Made by a program: the position numbers and the translations under genes. A model generated the notes under the pieces. The model had not been told where the DNA came from. It made no database searches and saw nothing but the letters and a program-made list of their open reading frames with translations. DNA of 27,431 nt, from IMG/VR virus record IMGVR_UViG_3300029448_000044, positions 29,613-57,043 of that record. The stretch is one strand, 5' to 3'. Shown piece after piece: positions 4,045-16,881 of the stretch (positions are counted from its first letter, which is position 1; each line of letters begins with the position of its first letter). Source of the DNA: a virus.

Positions 4045-4308
4045 TTATCCCTTCTTTGTTTTTTTCTTTTTAAATGTTGATACAAATGTAGGCTTACCAC
4101 CTACTCCTTGTTTCTTAGCTCTTTTTCTCTTCACTGCAGACCTTCTTTCACCTGCTGTCATTTTTTTAGCTTTGGCTAATGGAACACATTTAGGATACTT
4201 ACGTTTACTACCTTTTGCTTTTTTTCTACCACAAGGTTGAAACTTACCATTCTTTTTAGGTGCTCCTATATCTACCCATTTTTCTCCTACCCATTTACGT
4301 AAACTCAT
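4045..4308 (-). CDS. Small Lys/Arg-rich phage protein (WVGEKWVDIGAP motif)
   Basis: The 87-residue protein starts with SLRKWVGEKWVDIGAPKKNG and continues with a Cys-containing basic core (QPCGRKKAKGSKRKYPKC) and GERRSAVKRKRAKKQ. The N-terminal signature and basic C-terminal half recall a widespread phage family of unknown function. The two cysteines are spaced about 15 residues apart. Its start overlaps the stop of the 59-aa gene (ATGA), making it part of a coupled series of basic small genes. Nucleic-acid binding is a guess from charge. Confidence 0.75.
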   Translation of the reverse strand: MSLRKWVGEKWVDIGAPKKNGKFQPCGRKKAKGSKRKYPKCVPLAKAKKMTAGERRSAVKRKRAKKQGVGGKPTFVSTFKKKKTKKG

Positions 4309-4484
4309 TTCTTTTTCCTACGAGTAGTCTTTCTTTTTTTCTTAGTAGTTTTCTTTTTCTTCTTGCCACCAGGTTTTATTTTACCAGAACAAACTGCTGA
4401 TGCATACATATTAGCGTATGCTGATGGATATACATCAAATTTTCTTTTTGCTGCTGCCTTACCTTTTGGACAAAGTTTGGCCAT
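4305..4484 (-). CDS. Small basic protein with KFDVYPSAYAN motif
   Basis: This 59-residue ORF starts at ATG 4484 and encodes MAKLCPKGKAAAKRKFDVYP followed by SAYANMYASAVCSGK and a tail composed almost only of Lys, Arg, Thr and Gly. The KFDVYPSAYAN core is a recurrent motif of small marine phage proteins as I recall them (function unknown). It overlaps the preceding 45-aa gene by one base and the following 87-aa gene by four bases. It is probably nucleic-acid- or virion-associated, but this is not demonstrated. Confidence 0.75.
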   Translation of the reverse strand: MAKLCPKGKAAAKRKFDVYPSAYANMYASAVCSGKIKPGGKKKKKTTKKKRKTTRRKKK

Positions 4485-5282: not shown

Positions 5283-5582
5283 TTAGCACCTCCATCTGCG
5301 TCTTGCTTGTCTTAATCTTGAGTTAGGGTCTTTAGCTGCTTTAGGAAACTTTTTCATTTGTCCTGCAGACCTAGCACAGTAACTCCTTCTTCTTGCTGCT
5401 CTACTTTTACTTGGATTTTTTTCAGTAACAGCAGTCTTTAATTTACTACCAGGATTTTGTCTCCTGTATTTTTTTACGCCTTTTTCAGTTAAACCGGCAC
5501 CTTCTTTAGTGGGTCTTTTATCTCCACTTTTAATCGACATGCCCTTCATACCTTTGCCTTTACTTTTCTTCTTCTTAGGCAT
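5283..5582 (-). CDS. Small basic Cys-containing phage protein
   Basis: The 99-residue protein is rich in Lys and Arg. The N-terminus is KKKKSKGKGMKGM, followed by GLTEKGVKKYRRQNPGSKLK, a conserved-looking core RRRSYCARSAGQMKKFPKA, and the ending RQARRRWRC. This combination matches a family of small phage proteins of unknown function that I recall. It overlaps the 64-aa gene by 8 nt and is directly followed, without a gap, by the CTG-start gene. Its last codons supply the GGAGG used by that gene. Confidence 0.75.
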   Translation of the reverse strand: MPKKKKSKGKGMKGMSIKSGDKRPTKEGAGLTEKGVKKYRRQNPGSKLKTAVTEKNPSKSRAARRRSYCARSAGQMKKFPKAAKDPNSRLRQARRRWRC

Positions 5583-5769
5583 CTTCTGTTTTATATTCGG
5601 TTGATTCTTCTTTTATCTGAGATTCAATAGTTCCTCTAACTTGAGGACCTTTTCTAGCTGCACCATAGCCTTGACCAGTTGGCCTAGCTACAACATCATC
5701 TAGTTTATAATTGTTAATTACTTTACCTTCAGCACCGATAATTAAATCTTTTCCTACAAATTTACCCAT
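5575..5769 (-). CDS. Hypothetical 64-aa protein
   Basis: This short hydrophilic protein starts MGKFVGKDLIIGAEGKVINN and has a Gly/Arg-rich centre (ARPTGQGYGAARKGPQVRG) and an acidic C-terminus. No known motif is recognised. It lies between the 133-aa and 99-aa small genes with a 3-nt gap and an 8-nt overlap, so it belongs to the same transcription unit. Confidence 0.65.
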   Translation of the reverse strand: MGKFVGKDLIIGAEGKVINNYKLDDVVARPTGQGYGAARKGPQVRGTIESQIKEESTEYKTEDA

Positions 5770-5772
5770 TGT

Positions 5773-6174
5773 TTATCCTTTCTTGTATAATGATGCAACT
5801 AATGTATTACCATCAATTTTACCACCTTTAGATTTTCTAATTAGTCCACCTTTTTTAAAAGGTTGTTTTTCTTTTATTTGTTTATTAAATTCTTCTCTAA
5901 ATTCTTTTTTAGTTAATACTTTATTATCTGGTGCACCTTTTATTGCAATTCTACGAATTATATGTCTTAGTGGTAATAAAGTCCCTGTCCCACCAAATCT
6001 TTTTCCATATCTTTCTTTTAATTGTTTTTTACTTTCTTGGGGCATTTCTTCGCCCATAACAGTTGTATCATAAAACATTTTTTTATACTCTTTAAATGAT
6101 TTTTCAAAATCAGGAGCTGATTGTTTAGATTTTACAATATTTTTTCTTGCATTTTTTGATTTTTTATCAGACAT
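5773..6174 (-). CDS. Small Lys-rich protein with C-terminal GGKI...LVASLY motif
   Basis: The 133-residue protein is highly charged and mostly helical, with a Lys-rich C-terminal third. It ends in KGGKIDGNTLVASLYKKG, a motif shared with the next upstream 81-aa protein (GGKIGDKLVASFYGG) and, more loosely, with the 85-aa protein. Its start overlaps the upstream stop by one base. No function is recognised. The shared tail suggests a common partner or common destination, for example the capsid. Confidence 0.7.
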   Translation of the reverse strand: MSDKKSKNARKNIVKSKQSAPDFEKSFKEYKKMFYDTTVMGEEMPQESKKQLKERYGKRFGGTGTLLPLRHIIRRIAIKGAPDNKVLTKKEFREEFNKQIKEKQPFKKGGLIRKSKGGKIDGNTLVASLYKKG

Positions 6175-6419
6175 TATTCACATCCTCCATAAAATGAAGC
6201 AACAAGTTTATCACCTATCTTGCCACCTTCTTTAGCTGCTATTCGTTTAATTGTTTTTTGTTTTACTTTAATATTTTTTTGTGGTGATTTAGTTCTTTTT
6301 GGTTTTACACTAGTTTCTTGTAAAAATCTTTTCTCTATTGCTTTATCAAGTTCTTTACCAGTTAAACCTTCTTCTTCAAGTTCTTCTTTAATTTTTTCTT
6401 TTATTGCATCATTATCCAT
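6174..6419 (-). CDS. Small protein with C-terminal GGKI...LVASFY motif
   Basis: The 81-residue protein has an acidic/basic helical first half (KEKIKEELEEEGLTGKELDK) and a basic second half ending EGGKIGDKLVASFYGGCE. The ending is nearly the same as that of the 133-aa protein encoded next. A single cysteine sits two residues from the C-terminus. It is separated from the 85-aa gene by 2 nt. Function unknown. Confidence 0.7.
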   Translation of the reverse strand: MDNDAIKEKIKEELEEEGLTGKELDKAIEKRFLQETSVKPKRTKSPQKNIKVKQKTIKRIAAKEGGKIGDKLVASFYGGCE

Positions 6420-6421
6420 AA

Positions 6422-6679
6422 TTACATTCCTTTATAAGACGAATTAACCATAGAGTCACCTTCTTTATTTATTTTAATGACTCCTCCACCAGCTTTTTTA
6501 ATTACTTTACCACCATACATTTTACCAATCATTTTATCACCATCGCCCATTTTAGCTTTAATAATTTTTTCTTTTAATGGTTTTGGTAAATTTTTTTGGT
6601 CTCCTATTAGATATTTATCTTCTTTCATTTTATTGCCTCTTGTTACTTGTAAATTTATATTACTTCTATTAATAGCCAT
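6422..6679 (-). CDS. Small Gly/Lys-rich protein with duplicated GDxM motif
   Basis: The 85-residue protein starts MAINRSNINLQVTRGNKMKE. The second half contains two versions of a GD-x-M-[IV]-x-x-x-Y-x-G motif: GDKMIGKMYGG and, near the end, GDSMVNSSYKG. These resemble the C-termini of the two following genes. A GGKVIKKAGGGVIK run lies between them. The start overlaps the stop of the head-tail adaptor gene (TAATG). Function unknown. Confidence 0.7.
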   Translation of the reverse strand: MAINRSNINLQVTRGNKMKEDKYLIGDQKNLPKPLKEKIIKAKMGDGDKMIGKMYGGKVIKKAGGGVIKINKEGDSMVNSSYKGM

Positions 6680-7359
6680 TAGTCTGAATTCTTTACTACT
6701 GGATTTGGACCACCTAAAGGATTAGCTGGACTTTGCATATCATCTCTTCTAGTTCTTCTAGCTTGATTTCTAAGAGCATTTATAGAACCTTGAAACTGTT
6801 GTTCCATAGTTGGAATTAAAGAATAATTTTTCATAAATACCATTGACTCTACCATACATGCATCAAATAAAGCATTGTAACAAAACTCACTAAAATAATT
6901 AGAAGTGGTTGCACTTGTTCCTGTTGCACTAGATAATGCTAATGGTCTTTTTGTATATTGTATTTCACCAGTTAAAGTTGATGCTGGTGTTGGTACAACG
7001 TAAATCTGTGTATTTGTTTTTCTAGAATAATATCTTGGTATACCTGTTGATGTACTTGCATGTGGAAAATAATCAATTGCGTACTCGTAAGGTCTTTGTA
7101 ATAATGGTGTTATATTAGAAGATGCACTTGTTTTATAATTAACATTTCTAACAACTAAAGTACCATCTGGTAAAGATACTACTGGGTCTCCAGCAGTAAA
7201 TGTAAAACTTGAATAATTATCTAAACCAAAATCATCTAGTTCTTTCATTAAACGTAATTCTGCTTTTTCAATAATAAAAGGTATTTGTGATTCATACTCA
7301 GAAGAATCATTTTCTGTTGTATTAACTAAATCTGTTTTTAAGTATGAATACGAAGGCAT
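6679..7359 (-). CDS. Head-tail connector / phage adaptor protein
   Basis: The 226-residue protein has an N-terminal helical segment (YESQIPFIIEKAELRLMKEL), a beta-rich middle (DPVVSLPDGTLVVRNVNY; NTQIYVVPTPAS) and a helical C-terminus ending in an Arg-rich and Pro-rich tail. This layout is typical of phage adaptor proteins that attach below the portal, as I recall them. It follows the capsid gene and an 89-aa structural protein and shares length with the second adaptor-like protein at 2068-2748. Confidence in the adaptor role is moderate. Confidence 0.7.
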   Translation of the reverse strand: MPSYSYLKTDLVNTTENDSSEYESQIPFIIEKAELRLMKELDDFGLDNYSSFTFTAGDPVVSLPDGTLVVRNVNYKTSASSNITPLLQRPYEYAIDYFPHASTSTGIPRYYSRKTNTQIYVVPTPASTLTGEIQYTKRPLALSSATGTSATTSNYFSEFCYNALFDACMVESMVFMKNYSLIPTMEQQFQGSINALRNQARRTRRDDMQSPANPLGGPNPVVKNSD

Positions 7360-7693: not shown

Positions 7694-8611
7694 TTAGGTT
7701 CCTGGATTTCCGAAAAACCCTCTCCAGTCAGACACGCCAAAAGAATATCTTTCTCTTGCTTTAAATCTGATGTTTCCGGTGTCGAAATCAGGTTCCATTT
7801 TAGTTTGTAGAGGTGTTCTATTGAACATCTTTGTACCGTTTGGCACGTCAGTTTTAATAAAGTATGCATCACCATCATTAAATCTTCTGTTGACATAGAA
7901 ACCATCAGGAACTAATCCCATGTGTCTTATGCCATTGATGTCGTTATTTTCACTTCCAGTTTTACCTGGGGTATTTAAAATAACGTCAGCAACGAAAATT
8001 AAATCAGTTGGTATATGCAATGACATAGCACTAGCACCTATCAAAATTCCTCTATCATCTTTAGTTTGTTGAATCTGTATTAAAGATGTTTCAAGTACAG
8101 TTTGTGATAAGTCTGCGTTAGTACCATTGTTTGCTTTATTACTCTGAGTTCCACCAATTACTACAGGGTGAGCTGTACTAATGAATGCTTGACCATCGCC
8201 AATAGCAGAACTTCCAGCAGTAAAAGCCTCATTGAAAACTGAAGCAGCTTTCTGTTGCTTTGTATTTGCCATTGCTCTAGCTAAACCTTTTGCTCTTAAC
8301 TTTGCGAAAGTGTCATAGAGGTTATCCTCCATTGCTTCCTCAGTAATAGCAAAAGCTAGTGCGATAGTTTCGTTAGTGTAACGAGCTGTGTAGCTCTCAC
8401 TAGCGTTATCAAAAGTTACAGCAGCACCTTCGTTTTTAACTGGTGCAGTACCGAAACCGGTAAATAAAACTTCCTCTTCGAAAGCTCTATCCGAATTCTC
8501 TATTTCATATAGAGGTTCGTGTTCATTATTAACTTCTCCATACTCCAATCCAAAGACTGTATTCAATCCAGGAAGGAGCTCTTTGCTTATAGCACTTCTA
8601 TTTATTGCCAT
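7694..8611 (-). CDS. Major capsid protein (HK97-fold, Mu gpT-like)
   Basis: The 305-residue protein begins AINRSAISKELLPGLNTVFG and shows features I associate with Mu gpT-type HK97-fold capsid proteins: an N-terminal helical arm, YTNETIALAFAITEEAMEDN (spine helix region), a STAHPVVIGGTQSNK loop, and a C-terminal FKARERYSFGVSDWRGFFGN. It lacks an obvious cleaved delta domain, so the separate scaffold gene at 9791-10741 fits. It is followed by a hairpin that may protect or tune its mRNA. Its base composition is less AT-rich than that of the neighbouring small genes, as expected for a highly expressed gene. Confidence 0.85.
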   Translation of the reverse strand: MAINRSAISKELLPGLNTVFGLEYGEVNNEHEPLYEIENSDRAFEEEVLFTGFGTAPVKNEGAAVTFDNASESYTARYTNETIALAFAITEEAMEDNLYDTFAKLRAKGLARAMANTKQQKAASVFNEAFTAGSSAIGDGQAFISTAHPVVIGGTQSNKANNGTNADLSQTVLETSLIQIQQTKDDRGILIGASAMSLHIPTDLIFVADVILNTPGKTGSENNDINGIRHMGLVPDGFYVNRRFNDGDAYFIKTDVPNGTKMFNRTPLQTKMEPDFDTGNIRFKARERYSFGVSDWRGFFGNPGT

Positions 8612-10821: not shown

Positions 10822-11247
10822 CTAAAATGAACCTTTTGTTAAATTAAATGTAGGGTCTAAGTGAGTTGGTTCGTCTACTTTCATTATTACTTGGTCATCA
10901 AATAATAATAATAACTTTATTCCCTTATAAAATAGTTTTTGACCAGCATGTTTACCGTAACAAATATAATCATCTACGTTACACCATGGGCCATTAGGAA
11001 ACTTCTCTTCATCTTTATAAGCTAAGTTACCTATCTTTAATACTCTACCAACTGTTGTTAAGTATGATATATCATCTTTAACAGCATCTGGTAATAATAT
11101 ACCACCTTTTGTTTTAGATTTAATACTTATTGGTCTTACTAAAACGTGGTATCCTGGTAATTCTGGTAAAACATCTGGGTCTAATTTATCATCATCAGAT
11201 ATCCAAGAATTATTTTTCATTGCTTTACCTAAAGCTACTTGCTGCAT
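10822..11247 (-). CDS. GroES-like co-chaperonin
   Basis: The 141-residue protein contains a Cpn10 beta-barrel: PGYHVLVRPI (about 31-40), a mobile-loop region SIKSKTKGGILLPDAVKDD (41-59) with GGILL in place of the GGIVL of bacterial GroES, then LTTVGRVLKIG, and the C-terminal strand IKLLLLFDDQVIMKV. It is longer than host GroES (about 97 residues) because of an N-terminal extension of about 30 residues and a C-terminal tail of about 20. T4 gp31 is the known precedent: it replaces GroES for folding the capsid protein. Here the gene sits directly upstream of the scaffold-capsid promoter, fitting the same job with host GroEL. Confidence 0.85.
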   Translation of the reverse strand: MQQVALGKAMKNNSWISDDDKLDPDVLPELPGYHVLVRPISIKSKTKGGILLPDAVKDDISYLTTVGRVLKIGNLAYKDEEKFPNGPWCNVDDYICYGKHAGQKLFYKGIKLLLLFDDQVIMKVDEPTHLDPTFNLTKGSF

Positions 11248-11624: not shown

Positions 11625-14141
11625 CTATTCTCCTTTATCTAGTTTAGTTATTAAATCTATTACATCTTTATCTTCTTTTTGTTCTACCTCGGCTTGTTTC
11701 TTAGCAGAATCAAAAAGCATCTTTTGTTGTTCTAATTGTATCTTTTCTTCTTCGATAGCAAGTTTTGTCATAGCATCTAATTGTTTTAGAGCTTCTCTAC
11801 TTGTTCTATCATCAACACCTTTTTGTGCTCTAAGAGCTGTTGTAATACCTTTTTGTTCAGCATCCATCATTTGACCTTGACGCTTAATATCTAACTCTTG
11901 TGCCTCGATTGCTATCTTTGCATTTTCTTTAGCAGCATCAAGTTTTAATTTTTCTTTTTCTAATTCTACTTTAGATTGTTCTAATGCTACTAACTGTTGT
12001 TCTGGTGTCATTTGTTTACCCATTGCCATATTTGCATTGAGAACATCTTGAGCAGCAGCAGCCATAACAGCTTCTACATCTGTAGGTGTTCTAGGTTGTT
12101 GAGGCATTTGCTCCATCATAACTCTTGATGTGCCATTCATTTGTTCTTGATATTTCATTATAGAATGTTCTTGTATATTTGCTTCTAATATAGGTTTTAA
12201 TCTAGCCATAACAGGACTTGCTCCATTCATAGGGTCTGAGAGATAAGCCATTTTTACTTGGATATGAGCATCATGATTTTGACCTGGAAAGGCTGCAATA
12301 GGGATACCTTTTGTTGCTGCCACAATATCAGACACTGGGTCTAATGGTTGAGGTTGTGGAGCTGTAGGTAATATCTCTTCTATGTTTGGCATATTCGCAG
12401 CATTTAATATTGTTCTGTTTAATGCTTCTAGATTGAACATACCTGGTGGTGATTGTTGTGCCATTTGTAATGCCATATTAGCTAACATCATTCTATGTGC
12501 ATTAGAAGGTATATTAGGGTCACTTACCGGTATAACATCGACAACACCATCAAAATCTTTTCTAAATATTTCTCTACTTGCATTAGGAACATCATAAGGA
12601 TATTCATTAGGTAGATAATCATAATCTATCTCTGCAATAATTTTAAATTCATCTCTTTGTGATTTATGTAATCTTTTGTGAATGCCAGAGAAGAACTTAC
12701 TAGAGGCTTCAAGTAAAGCCATAGTAGTTCCAACTGGTCCATAGGAGGCAGCATCAGAAACTATTTGTTCTGTGCTGTCTGCAAACTTCTGACCTGCAGC
12801 AGTTACAAATCCAAGCATATTGTATAGAACTGAGGAAGGCTCTTTATATGGGAGAGGAACAATTGCCTTTTGTAAATCTATACCAGTTGCTTCGACCTCC
12901 TTGAACTCACCAGGAGCAATAGGTTCGTTGTCGCCCACCATTCTTACTCCTTTTGCCTTAAACCCTCCAGGTAGATTAGCAAACTGTCCAGCATCAACAA
13001 GACTCCTCATTGCTGCAGTTGCTGTTAATGTTAAGTTACCTAAGAAATGTATAAGGCCTAACCCATAGAAACTAAATCCTGGAACAAATTTGTAGTGGAC
13101 AAAATGCATCCTTTTTTCTTTATTTGTATCACCGGCTCTATAGTTTCTACGAATACTCAATATTTGACGAGACTCCTGTTCTACAGTTACAATATAAGGA
13201 GCATACTCGCCTTCTTCACATTCTGGGTCAGGAATGTCAAGATGTACGTGTTGTTCTAATAAGACGTATTGTGGGTCATTGTCTGCTGTCGGTGCAATAC
13301 CCATAATCGTATTTAATTTTTCTGATAGTGTTGTTTGAGAAGGATTAGATGCATCAGGTAAATCTACATCTGCATATATTCCAGACTCAATATCTCTTTG
13401 CATATCTATTGGACTACGATAAATAACATGCGTATATCTATCTGCTTTTCTTAAATTAGAAGCATAATATGATACATAAAATTGGTCAATAGGTACAAAC
13501 TCTGAAACAGGTCTTTCTAATCCAGCATCATAATATACTTTCTTAATGGCAGAACCAATGAGAGGTAAATGAAATAACATTCTTTCAAACTCATCAAAGT
13601 ATTCTGGCATCTGCTCAGTTAATTGATAGTTCATAAAGTTTTGAACTCTATTTGCCTGTTCTTGTTTCTCTACAGTTTGACTACCTAGTATCTGTGCCTT
13701 TACAGGACCTCCAGATGGAAATAATTCTTGAGAGGCTTTTGATTGAAACTTTACAGCAGATTCAATTAATAATGGATGTACGGCAGTACAAGCACCTTCA
13801 AAAGGTTCTGTTGCATCTTCTAATTTTAATCCTAATAAATCAAATCCTCTTTCGAACATTGAATCCCATTCACCTCTGGATTCTTTATCTGATTGAAAGT
13901 TTTCAATAACATCATATGCAATATCTTTTAATAAACCTTCATCCATATCTACAGCAAGATTAGTATAATATTCTTTTGCTGTTACTTCTTCTTCTATATT
14001 CTCTTCACCAAAGTTTACTACAACTCCACCATCTGTATCTACCTCAAAAGATACATTCTCATCTGCTGGTGCTGTGGCATCTATGGATACTACATTTGTT
14101 GTTTCTTCTTTTTGTTCAAATGGATTTTTTTCTATTGCCAT
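11625..14141 (-). CDS. Portal protein (P22-like, long form)
   Basis: The 838-residue protein has an acidic, disordered N-terminus (1-55), then the portal core with ESRGEWDSMFERGFDLLGLK, AVHPLLIESAVKFQSKASQE, FFxMLFHLPLIGSAIKK-like segments and SFYGLGLIHFLGNLTLTATA. The C-terminus is a long coiled coil rich in Gln, Glu and Lys (about 690-838), equivalent to the barrel helix of P22-type portals. Portal dodecamers form the DNA entry channel and dock the terminase. Length exceeds P22 gp1 (about 725 residues). It lies directly downstream of the 392-aa gene with a one-base overlap. Confidence 0.88.
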   Translation of the reverse strand: MAIEKNPFEQKEETTNVVSIDATAPADENVSFEVDTDGGVVVNFGEENIEEEVTAKEYYTNLAVDMDEGLLKDIAYDVIENFQSDKESRGEWDSMFERGFDLLGLKLEDATEPFEGACTAVHPLLIESAVKFQSKASQELFPSGGPVKAQILGSQTVEKQEQANRVQNFMNYQLTEQMPEYFDEFERMLFHLPLIGSAIKKVYYDAGLERPVSEFVPIDQFYVSYYASNLRKADRYTHVIYRSPIDMQRDIESGIYADVDLPDASNPSQTTLSEKLNTIMGIAPTADNDPQYVLLEQHVHLDIPDPECEEGEYAPYIVTVEQESRQILSIRRNYRAGDTNKEKRMHFVHYKFVPGFSFYGLGLIHFLGNLTLTATAAMRSLVDAGQFANLPGGFKAKGVRMVGDNEPIAPGEFKEVEATGIDLQKAIVPLPYKEPSSVLYNMLGFVTAAGQKFADSTEQIVSDAASYGPVGTTMALLEASSKFFSGIHKRLHKSQRDEFKIIAEIDYDYLPNEYPYDVPNASREIFRKDFDGVVDVIPVSDPNIPSNAHRMMLANMALQMAQQSPPGMFNLEALNRTILNAANMPNIEEILPTAPQPQPLDPVSDIVAATKGIPIAAFPGQNHDAHIQVKMAYLSDPMNGASPVMARLKPILEANIQEHSIMKYQEQMNGTSRVMMEQMPQQPRTPTDVEAVMAAAAQDVLNANMAMGKQMTPEQQLVALEQSKVELEKEKLKLDAAKENAKIAIEAQELDIKRQGQMMDAEQKGITTALRAQKGVDDRTSREALKQLDAMTKLAIEEEKIQLEQQKMLFDSAKKQAEVEQKEDKDVIDLITKLDKGE

Positions 14142-15325: not shown

Positions 15326-15354
15326 ATTATACCACTAAACTCGCCAATATGCAA
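15326..15354 (-). promoter_or_regulatory. Sigma70-like promoter, leaderless arrangement, for the 392-aa gene
   Basis: TTGCAT (15349-15354), a 17-nt spacer ending GTGG and TATAAT (15326-15331) lie over the terminase stop. Only ATATAT separates the -10 from ATG at 15319, so transcription starting about 7 nt after the -10 begins at the start codon itself. Confidence 0.75.
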
Positions 15355-16846
15355 CCCTTTTTTTATTTTTTATTTCTTCTTCCATATAAGGGTCATCAGG
15401 ATGTGTTAATCTCCAGGATTCTTTCATGTAATGAATTGCCATTGTCATAGCATCTACTTGGTCATCGTGAGCAGCATTTGGGAATTGTAAAATCTCTGTG
15501 TACAAATCATCAGACCATTTTTTATTTTTAGGTAACCAAACTCTACCGGCTTCAATCATTGGCGATGCTGCGTATACTCTGGATACTTTATCTTTATCTG
15601 GAATGTAATCTTGTACTGGTAGTCCAGCTCTACGCATATCTTGTAGTAATGATTGCCCTGATGCTTTCTTTTCTATGATACATACATCAGGATTAAATTC
15701 ATCGTATAAGACTTGGGCAATACGTCTTAGTTCTGGATATTCAAATCTGCCTCGCATATTACCTAGTAGAATTAAATGAGGTTGAAACTCTTCATATCCT
15801 TGTTCATTTGCTGAGAACCTGTGAAAGATACCCCAGGTTTGTATTACGCTGTAGTCTGCTGTTGTTTTTGTTGAGAAGGCAGTATCATATGTTTGTATAA
15901 TAAAATCACAAGCAGGTGGTTCATCATATTCCCACCACTGTAGCCATTTCTTTTTTATTAGGCCACCTTCATCAGGGGTAGGGTCCTGCATGTATAAGGC
16001 ATTCCAATATCTAGCACCATTTGATGCTCTTATTTCTTGTTCATCAATCTTTAATGACTCATCTGTCTTCCATTCTGGAAAGTATGAAGAGCCTACAGGT
16101 AATTTTAATAACTCGGCACTAGCTTCATCTAGCCATGCTGGTATTCTTATTACCTCCCAAGGTAGAATAGATGCAAATTGTGATTCTTGTTTTAGTAACC
16201 ATCCACATAAATCATCATAATGGTACCTAGTATTAATTATGAGAATACTTCCGTTAGGCATAATACGAGTTCTAAGACCTGCAGGGTACCATTCTTTTAC
16301 ATATCTTCTTCCTGCCTCTGAGTATGAGTCTTCTTCAGACATCACATCATCAAGAATTGCTATATGTGCTCCTCTTCCTGCGATTTGGCTTTTGACTCCT
16401 GCTGCATAGTAGCTGCCTCCTTTGTTTGTTTTCCATTTTCCGGCTGCTCTAACGTCTGTCCTAAGAGAAACACCTTTAAATACGTTTTGAAATTGCTTAG
16501 TTGATACGATATCTCTAACAGACCTACCGAAATCGCTAGAGAGCTGGTCGCTATGAGAGACTGTAAGTATTTCATGTTCAGGATTCCTTCCAATATACCA
16601 AGCTGGGAATAATTTAGAGCATATTACGGACTTAGAACTTCTAGGAGGCAAGAAAACCATCAGCCTTTTTATAGTTCCTTCTTCTAATAGCTTTAATTTT
16701 TCTGATATTACTTCTATGTGTTTACCCATTTGCCAGTCAGAGACTAATGTAGGGGCAAATAAACGTACAAATGTAAGAAAATCTTGCTTGGAATGGTATT
16801 TTATATTGTTATACCATTTGTTTTTATAATTAATTACCTCTTCCAT
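15335..16846 (-). CDS. terL: Terminase large subunit
   Basis: With start at ATG 16846 the protein has 503 residues. The ATPase has a variant Walker A near residues 66-73 (LPPRSSKS) and a Walker B in HIAILDDVMSEED. The nuclease domain has FIIQTYDTAFS, DVCIIEKKASGQS and AAHDDQVDAMTMA, giving the expected Asp/Glu/Asp metal ligands. The upstream in-frame ATG at 16864 lies inside the promoter spacer and cannot be on a transcript made from it, so the later start was chosen. The -10 ends 6 nt before this ATG, predicting a leaderless mRNA. The enzyme packages DNA into the prohead through the portal. No small subunit gene was recognised here. Confidence 0.9.
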   Translation of the reverse strand: MEEVINYKNKWYNNIKYHSKQDFLTFVRLFAPTLVSDWQMGKHIEVISEKLKLLEEGTIKRLMVFLPPRSSKSVICSKLFPAWYIGRNPEHEILTVSHSDQLSSDFGRSVRDIVSTKQFQNVFKGVSLRTDVRAAGKWKTNKGGSYYAAGVKSQIAGRGAHIAILDDVMSEEDSYSEAGRRYVKEWYPAGLRTRIMPNGSILIINTRYHYDDLCGWLLKQESQFASILPWEVIRIPAWLDEASAELLKLPVGSSYFPEWKTDESLKIDEQEIRASNGARYWNALYMQDPTPDEGGLIKKKWLQWWEYDEPPACDFIIQTYDTAFSTKTTADYSVIQTWGIFHRFSANEQGYEEFQPHLILLGNMRGRFEYPELRRIAQVLYDEFNPDVCIIEKKASGQSLLQDMRRAGLPVQDYIPDKDKVSRVYAASPMIEAGRVWLPKNKKWSDDLYTEILQFPNAAHDDQVDAMTMAIHYMKESWRLTHPDDPYMEEEIKNKKRVAYWRV

Positions 16847-16852
16847 AAGTTT

Positions 16853-16881
16853 ATTATACCACATTTTTACAGAAAAGGCAA
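16853..16881 (-). promoter_or_regulatory. Leftward late promoter for terminase (leaderless arrangement)
   Basis: TTGCCT (16876-16881), a 17-nt spacer ending ATGTGG and TATAAT (16853-16858) are followed by AAACTT and the ATG at 16846. The spacer is nearly the same as in the scaffold promoter. It is the first leftward promoter out of the divergent control region. Confidence 0.75.

Follow-up and report, generated by a model that had tools for sequence, protein, structure and literature searches.

Why should neighbouring small proteins of a phage end in nearly the same short sequence while the remainder of each protein differs from the next? This question is raised by three consecutive genes in a stretch of viral DNA of 27,431 bases, which we term the window and which comprises positions 29613-57043 of a 57,043-base virus record. 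The virus, an uncultured marine phage, is related by its capsid gene to SAR11/Roseobacter podoviruses, with a major capsid protein (7694-8611; phrog_371, PF25209) that is 51-56% identical to those of DSL-LC04, the pelagiphages HTVC027P and HTVC023P, 023Pt_psg01 and the Roseobacter phages CRP-901/902. A profile of the capsid alignment matched no solved structure, and an AlphaFold model of the capsid protein was unusable (mean pLDDT 40). The three genes belong to a block of head genes on the minus strand that encodes, in reading order, the terminase large subunit (15335-16864), a 392-aa protein, the portal (11625-14141; phrog_1216), GroES (10822-11247), the capsid protein, a SU10-like head-tail adaptor (6679-7359; PF24175, E 3.7e-17), the 85-, 81- and 133-aa proteins under study and a 64-aa protein (5575-5769), followed on the same strand by further small lysine-rich proteins. 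The adaptor gene bounds a variable cassette on one side and the 64-aa gene bounds it on the other; relatives of the 64-aa protein form this border in 92 non-redundant loci. A GroES-like co-chaperonin adjoining the head genes, as seen here, is also annotated in HTVC023P, HTVC027P, CRP-902 and DSL-LC04. A conserved 191-aa protein at 4560-5135 matches phrog_3704, which is labelled ferredoxin, a label that looks doubtful.

The first gene of the cassette encodes the 85-aa protein (6422-6679, pI 10.0), which carries an N-terminal MAINRSNI motif, and is followed on the minus strand by genes for a basic 81-aa protein (6174-6419, pI 9.4) and a basic 133-aa protein (5773-6174, pI 10.2). Genes overlap by a single base at 6174 (133- and 81-aa genes) and at 6679 (start of the 85-aa gene and stop of the adaptor gene), which ties the cassette to the adaptor gene. 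The initial annotation had described these three reading frames and quoted their ends, both of which are correct, and had proposed that the proteins share a C-terminal motif and are dissimilar elsewhere, an observation that we confirm. Pairwise BLASTP supports the common motif for the 133- and 81-aa proteins, which align in the tail only (11/19 identical, E 0.002) through the sequences that we term tag A, GGKIDGNTLVASLYKKG at 5776-5826 and GGKIGDKLVASFYGGCE at 6177-6227. The end of the 85-aa protein, GDSMVNSSYKGM at 6425-6460, is divergent and alone falls below the threshold (E<0.05) of the tag-A profile described below. The 133-aa protein has no significant match to the 85-aa protein (best E 4.3), and the 81- and 85-aa proteins align weakly (16/35, E 0.001) around an internal copy of the motif, GDKMIGKMYGG, located at 6509-6541 of the 85-aa gene. 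Since 26 members of the MAINRSNI family do pass the threshold, ending mostly in GNKFIQSFYDKG or GNQFVQSFYDKG, we regard the end of the window's 85-aa protein as a divergent copy of tag A. The start of this protein also resembles that of the capsid protein (MAINRSAI), and in other loci there are ORFs of about 30 aa that consist of a MAINRS-type start plus lysines. This type of start is possibly a second, N-terminal signal.

Homology searches assigned no function to the three proteins or to the other bodies that carry the tail, as their matches in Pfam and PHROGs were weak and chance-like. The 133-aa protein matches nothing in Pfam at E values up to 1 and nothing significantly in PHROGs, and its AlphaFold model was unusable (mean pLDDT 50). 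A peptide scan of IMG/VR with this protein found no relative; four clustered relatives are present in other loci, so this type of scan misses relatives. Searches of a phage collection by tblastn with the small proteins, two other cassette proteins and two 20-aa tails returned nothing or two meaningless matches, the queries being short and of low complexity.

Does the tail exist as a defined element outside of the window? A 17-column profile of tag A, derived from 11 tails, was used to search the 4,815 unique ORFs of 35 aa or more in 172 loci, among them the window's own genome and stretches of isolates. This search of relatives for small proteins ending in the motif, which the initial annotation had called for, recovered 73 ORFs at E<0.05, with the match ending 0-2 residues from the C-terminus in 72 of them and 8 residues before the stop in one. 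Shuffled ORFs and reversed ORFs each gave no match to the profile. The consensus of tag A is GGxIxGNxLVASxYxxG, and all 73 tagged ORFs are basic (pI 9.35-10.8). Two degenerate DNA patterns of the tag found 18 and 13 stretches of IMG/VR containing 33 matches, of which 32 coincide with an ORF end; the remaining one, in L099, is near an ORF start on a contig without other signs of kinship. When one such pattern was applied to a collection of bacterial genomes, none of the eight stretches found had the match at an ORF end.

The tail is carried by many unrelated bodies. Clustering of 81 tag-A proteins (73 from the profile and eight with variant tails added by eye) by masked BLAST (E<=1e-5, 40% coverage) gave 16 body clusters; masking still leaves the 97-aa and 138-aa bodies of L105 joined as one. 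An initial, unmasked clustering, which was replaced by the masked one, had given 10 clusters by merging lysine-rich bodies. The body of the 133-aa protein is common to five clustered sequences, and the body cluster of the 81-aa protein has 14 tagged members in 32 loci. The tag-A counts come from overlapping, adaptor-anchored samples of one clade, and those of the KPRG tail discussed below from a sample chosen by the motif itself; consequently, all cluster numbers are lower bounds from which no frequencies can be read.

How one tail came to be on so many bodies is apparent from close relatives. Genes for an 80-aa protein in L036, a 119-aa protein in L034 and 128-/133-aa proteins in L106/L012 are 90-100% identical in DNA over their last 60 nt and 87-100% identical over the next 120 nt downstream, compared to 47-63% at 60-90 nt before the end and 13-40% beyond 90 nt, where the bodies are encoded (ungapped identities counted back from the stop, with the body-sharing L106/L012 pair left out). 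Identity of the tail and downstream DNA combined with divergence of the bodies indicates that a body was replaced at the tail boundary while the tail and the downstream gene were kept. In a separate comparison, seven tails on largely unrelated bodies have 64% protein identity, with a pS of 0.56 versus a pN of 0.24 and with different codons at 43% of identical residues. Here the tail is old and is conserved as a protein across bodies. Within families, the relative constraint on tail and body is mixed. For example, pN/pS for tail versus body is 0.53/0.94 in the 85-aa family, 0.51/0.91 in the 133-aa family, 0.24/0.73 in the 97-aa family and 1.03/1.31 in a single pair, but the order is reversed in the 81-aa family (1.26/0.71), so that the tail does not always appear to be more strongly constrained than its body.

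The initial annotation had noted that homologs without tails would count against a common tag. This objection does not apply to the two clear families, those of the 81-aa protein (14 members) and the 133-aa protein (5 members): both were picked by their tail, but a search for tail-less body homologs added no member. Overall, 120 ORFs are similar to tag-A bodies and 47 of these are not tagged according to the profile. About half of the 47 carry variants of the tail with the same architecture (NKEVSQFYDKG, HNGNDIVAAGYTKIA, GDKFVAAQYGGQ), and 20 are proteins of 82-313 aa whose likeness to the 85-aa family lies mostly in the VRNKMGFKK..GGK..KRAGGG piece and whose tail is ALRGFGxxRK or close to it. 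Among the others are an L108 ORF that forms a fusion with the downstream gene, an HTVC027P ORF without such a tail and four small lysine-rich repeat proteins. There are additionally truncated ORFs that resemble the 81-aa family and have no tail, of 35 aa in L019, L020, L022, L102 and L103 and of 45 aa in L144. A piece of the 85-aa family in proteins with an ALRGFGxxRK-type end constitutes direct evidence of domain shuffling. The initial annotation had offered a tag on unrelated bodies and the remains of domain shuffling as alternatives; both are supported and belong together, with bodies exchanged at the boundary of a tail that is found on 16 body clusters and that is kept at the protein level between unrelated bodies.

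The cassette is itself highly variable. In relatives, the slot between the adaptor and the 64-aa protein contains a changing set of small basic proteins, and the distance between these borders ranges from 69 to 1,297 bases in the 92 non-redundant loci that have both. At least one profile-detected tag-A gene is present in the slot of 27 of the 30 closest relatives and of 42 of the 92 loci, from which we conclude that tag A is dispensable in this clade. Slots that lack tag A often have no ORF beyond one of about 30 aa, are empty, or encode proteins with a different tail. Tag-A and KPRG proteins are together in one slot in L064, L074, L148 and L151.

Two further tails were recognized. Tag B is KPRG[VWFC]GxA, in most cases with RG[YF]G after it. 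P[RT]GxGxA occurs in 26 ORFs of the adaptor loci and is within 15 residues of the end in 24 of them, versus 1.6 in shuffles, and the 23 good KPRG proteins of these loci, which reach 882 aa, form 12 body clusters. An IMG/VR scan for KPRG found at least 120 stretches; among the 79 new loci listed, 107 of 113 ORF matches are within 15 residues of the C-terminus, and the tail is present on at least 34 body clusters. Two or more KPRG genes with different bodies, mostly side by side, occur in 23 of 73 loci among the matches listed. Ten proteins encoded next to KPRG genes in six of the listed loci include the terminase large subunit in five loci, a portal in two and a phrog_3704 protein in three. The third tail, ALRG[FL]GxxRK, is followed by a single residue in all 24 ORFs that contain it. 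In the cultured phage HTVC023P, gp32 (245 aa, adjoining the portal) and gp51 (127 aa) are unrelated to each other and end in IRGVGAAIRGHKFIGVK and SRGGGAAVRGMGFKGVF, respectively, and their tails (IRGVGAAIRG and SRGGGAAVRG) resemble tag B. As far as can be judged from their sequences, the KPRG and ALRGFG tails behave like tag A.

Several additional observations concern these tails. KPRG-tailed genes often form runs of two or three next to the terminase and portal genes (L180-L258), and KPRG tails are also present in the adaptor-side slot of L128, L131, L149 and L155. Relatives of the window's 191-aa phrog_3704 protein recur beside KPRG cassettes in L183, L198 and L253. The window also encodes an AKLCPKG protein (4305-4484) that has a lysine-rich end without the tail; RGxGAA/KPRG tails are instead present on similar proteins, namely gp51 of HTVC023P and those of a cluster around L182. 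The ALRG[FL]GxxRK tail is found in L043, L044, L048, L062, L063, L066 and others, in proteins whose central part has a piece in common with the 85-aa family.

Tails that bind one partner would be expected to resemble each other within a genome. For KPRG tails on different bodies, mean likeness is 0.771 within versus 0.702 between genomes (1/20,000 permutations, 22 loci), and tag-A tails have a likeness of 0.631 within versus 0.528 between genomes (64/40,320 permutations, 8 genomes), with kinship of the genomes uncontrolled in both comparisons. With near relatives dropped, the tag-A signal weakens to 14/720 permutations for six genomes and 14/120 for five. Gene conversion as an alternative source of this likeness would give the same pattern.

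What, then, may the tails do? We propose that they are modular C-terminal docking tags that most likely load small basic proteins into the assembling virion, a reading on which we place about half of our belief. We infer that the tag would bind a common phage partner, such as the capsid, portal or scaffold protein, and thereby deliver the tagged proteins to the head during its assembly; the bodies would be interchangeable cargo, which may leave the virion along with the DNA and target host functions. The initial annotation's suggestion of a packaging tag is plausible given the position of the genes and the parallel to phage T4 drawn below. The same position among head genes would also be expected if the tails anchor minor structural proteins, decoration or assembly factors rather than internal cargo, on the head exterior or neck, and a shared docking surface there would equally explain why tails are alike within a genome. 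We regard this possibility as doubtful, as the basic nature of the bodies, and the way in which close relatives gain, lose and swap them, are a better fit to variable internal cargo than to a structural component. We also think it unlikely that the proteins act in the infected cell, with the tail docking them to one phage or host factor involved, for example, in transcription, DNA condensation or as a defence target. Basic, lysine-rich bodies with the tail as their sole shared part are in line with such a role; however, location in the head block and the one-base overlap with the adaptor gene suggest that these genes are probably expressed late, with the adaptor.

The body swaps that share 87-100% of their DNA at the tail and downstream raise the question of whether the tail is mainly a recombination handle, that is, short shared DNA at gene ends that promotes body exchange and whose protein sequence has little function. 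This has a low probability in our view, as the tail is nearly always C-terminal and, between other bodies, is kept as protein despite many synonymous changes (pS 0.56, pN 0.24). A short C-terminal sequence could also be a degradation or processing signal. We give this explanation hardly any credence given that ssrA-type degrons have a small hydrophobic end, which is unlike the Y-x-x-G/K/V with which the tail ends, and that such a signal provides no reason for location in a head-gene cassette. Double-glycine leader peptides were considered and rejected; in those, the conserved part is an N-terminal leader, the reverse of tag A.

Comparison of our preferred reading, the loading of small basic proteins into the virion, with known systems identifies two parallels. 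Encapsulin cargo-loading peptides are described as short sequences at the C-terminus of various cargo proteins that direct them into a shell of the HK97 fold (PMC7925596, PMC8346489), and tag A is likewise a short C-terminal peptide on various bodies. However, comparison by eye with the peptides quoted in PMC7925596 indicates that the GSL core of family-1 peptides is absent from tag A (VAS-[LFIY]-Y); what remains is a slight likeness, a serine plus a hydrophobic residue, that amounts to analogy only. The 64-aa protein contains PTGQGYGAAR (5653-5682), which is identical in 7/10 positions to the proposed family-2B encapsulin motif PTGLGTSAAR, a level reached by 0/200 shuffled proteomes and 5/300 shuffled motifs. 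Unlike C-terminal encapsulin cargo peptides, it is located in the middle of the protein, and we treat the likeness as a lead only. It is quite improbable that C-terminal "zip codes" (GGxIxGNxLVASxY, KPRGxGxA, ALRGFG) in several marine phage lineages form a general cargo-loading code of HK97-type capsids, a counterpart and possibly ancestor of encapsulin peptides that serves hypervariable, host-delivered cargo. Within phages, the HTVC023P-type pelagiphages, CRP-901/902, DSL-LC04 and Pag-Yong1 have a related capsid and, in the stretches compared, a similar order of head genes; tag A was not seen in these stretches. Our search of mainly open-access journal articles found no description of such C-terminal tags in phages.

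The nearest working parallel appears to be the set of internal proteins of T4. The internal proteins IPI, IPII and IPIII are reported to be small and basic, with bodies that vary between related phages (PMC3012670, PMC9026906) and so diverse that only the targeting sequence is conserved (PMC3012670). As with the tag-A proteins and their 16 body clusters, one short conserved terminal sequence is present on very different bodies. Judged by its capsid, the window phage is an HTVC023P-type rather than a T4-like phage, and Pfam and PHROG scans of the tag-A bodies named no internal protein. The tested point of mismatch is the position of the tag, as the T4 targeting sequence (CTS), which has 10-19 residues and is removed by the prohead protease, is N-terminal, whereas tag A is C-terminal in 72 of 73 matches. 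If the tags do load virions, then dozens of small marine phage proteins that lack annotation would be recognizable as cargo by their last 20 residues, and this cargo could be catalogued in metagenomes and assayed for anti-defence activity. The tag could also be tried in a laboratory phage system as a signal for loading a fluorescent reporter, and it would be the C-terminal equivalent of the targeting sequence of T4.
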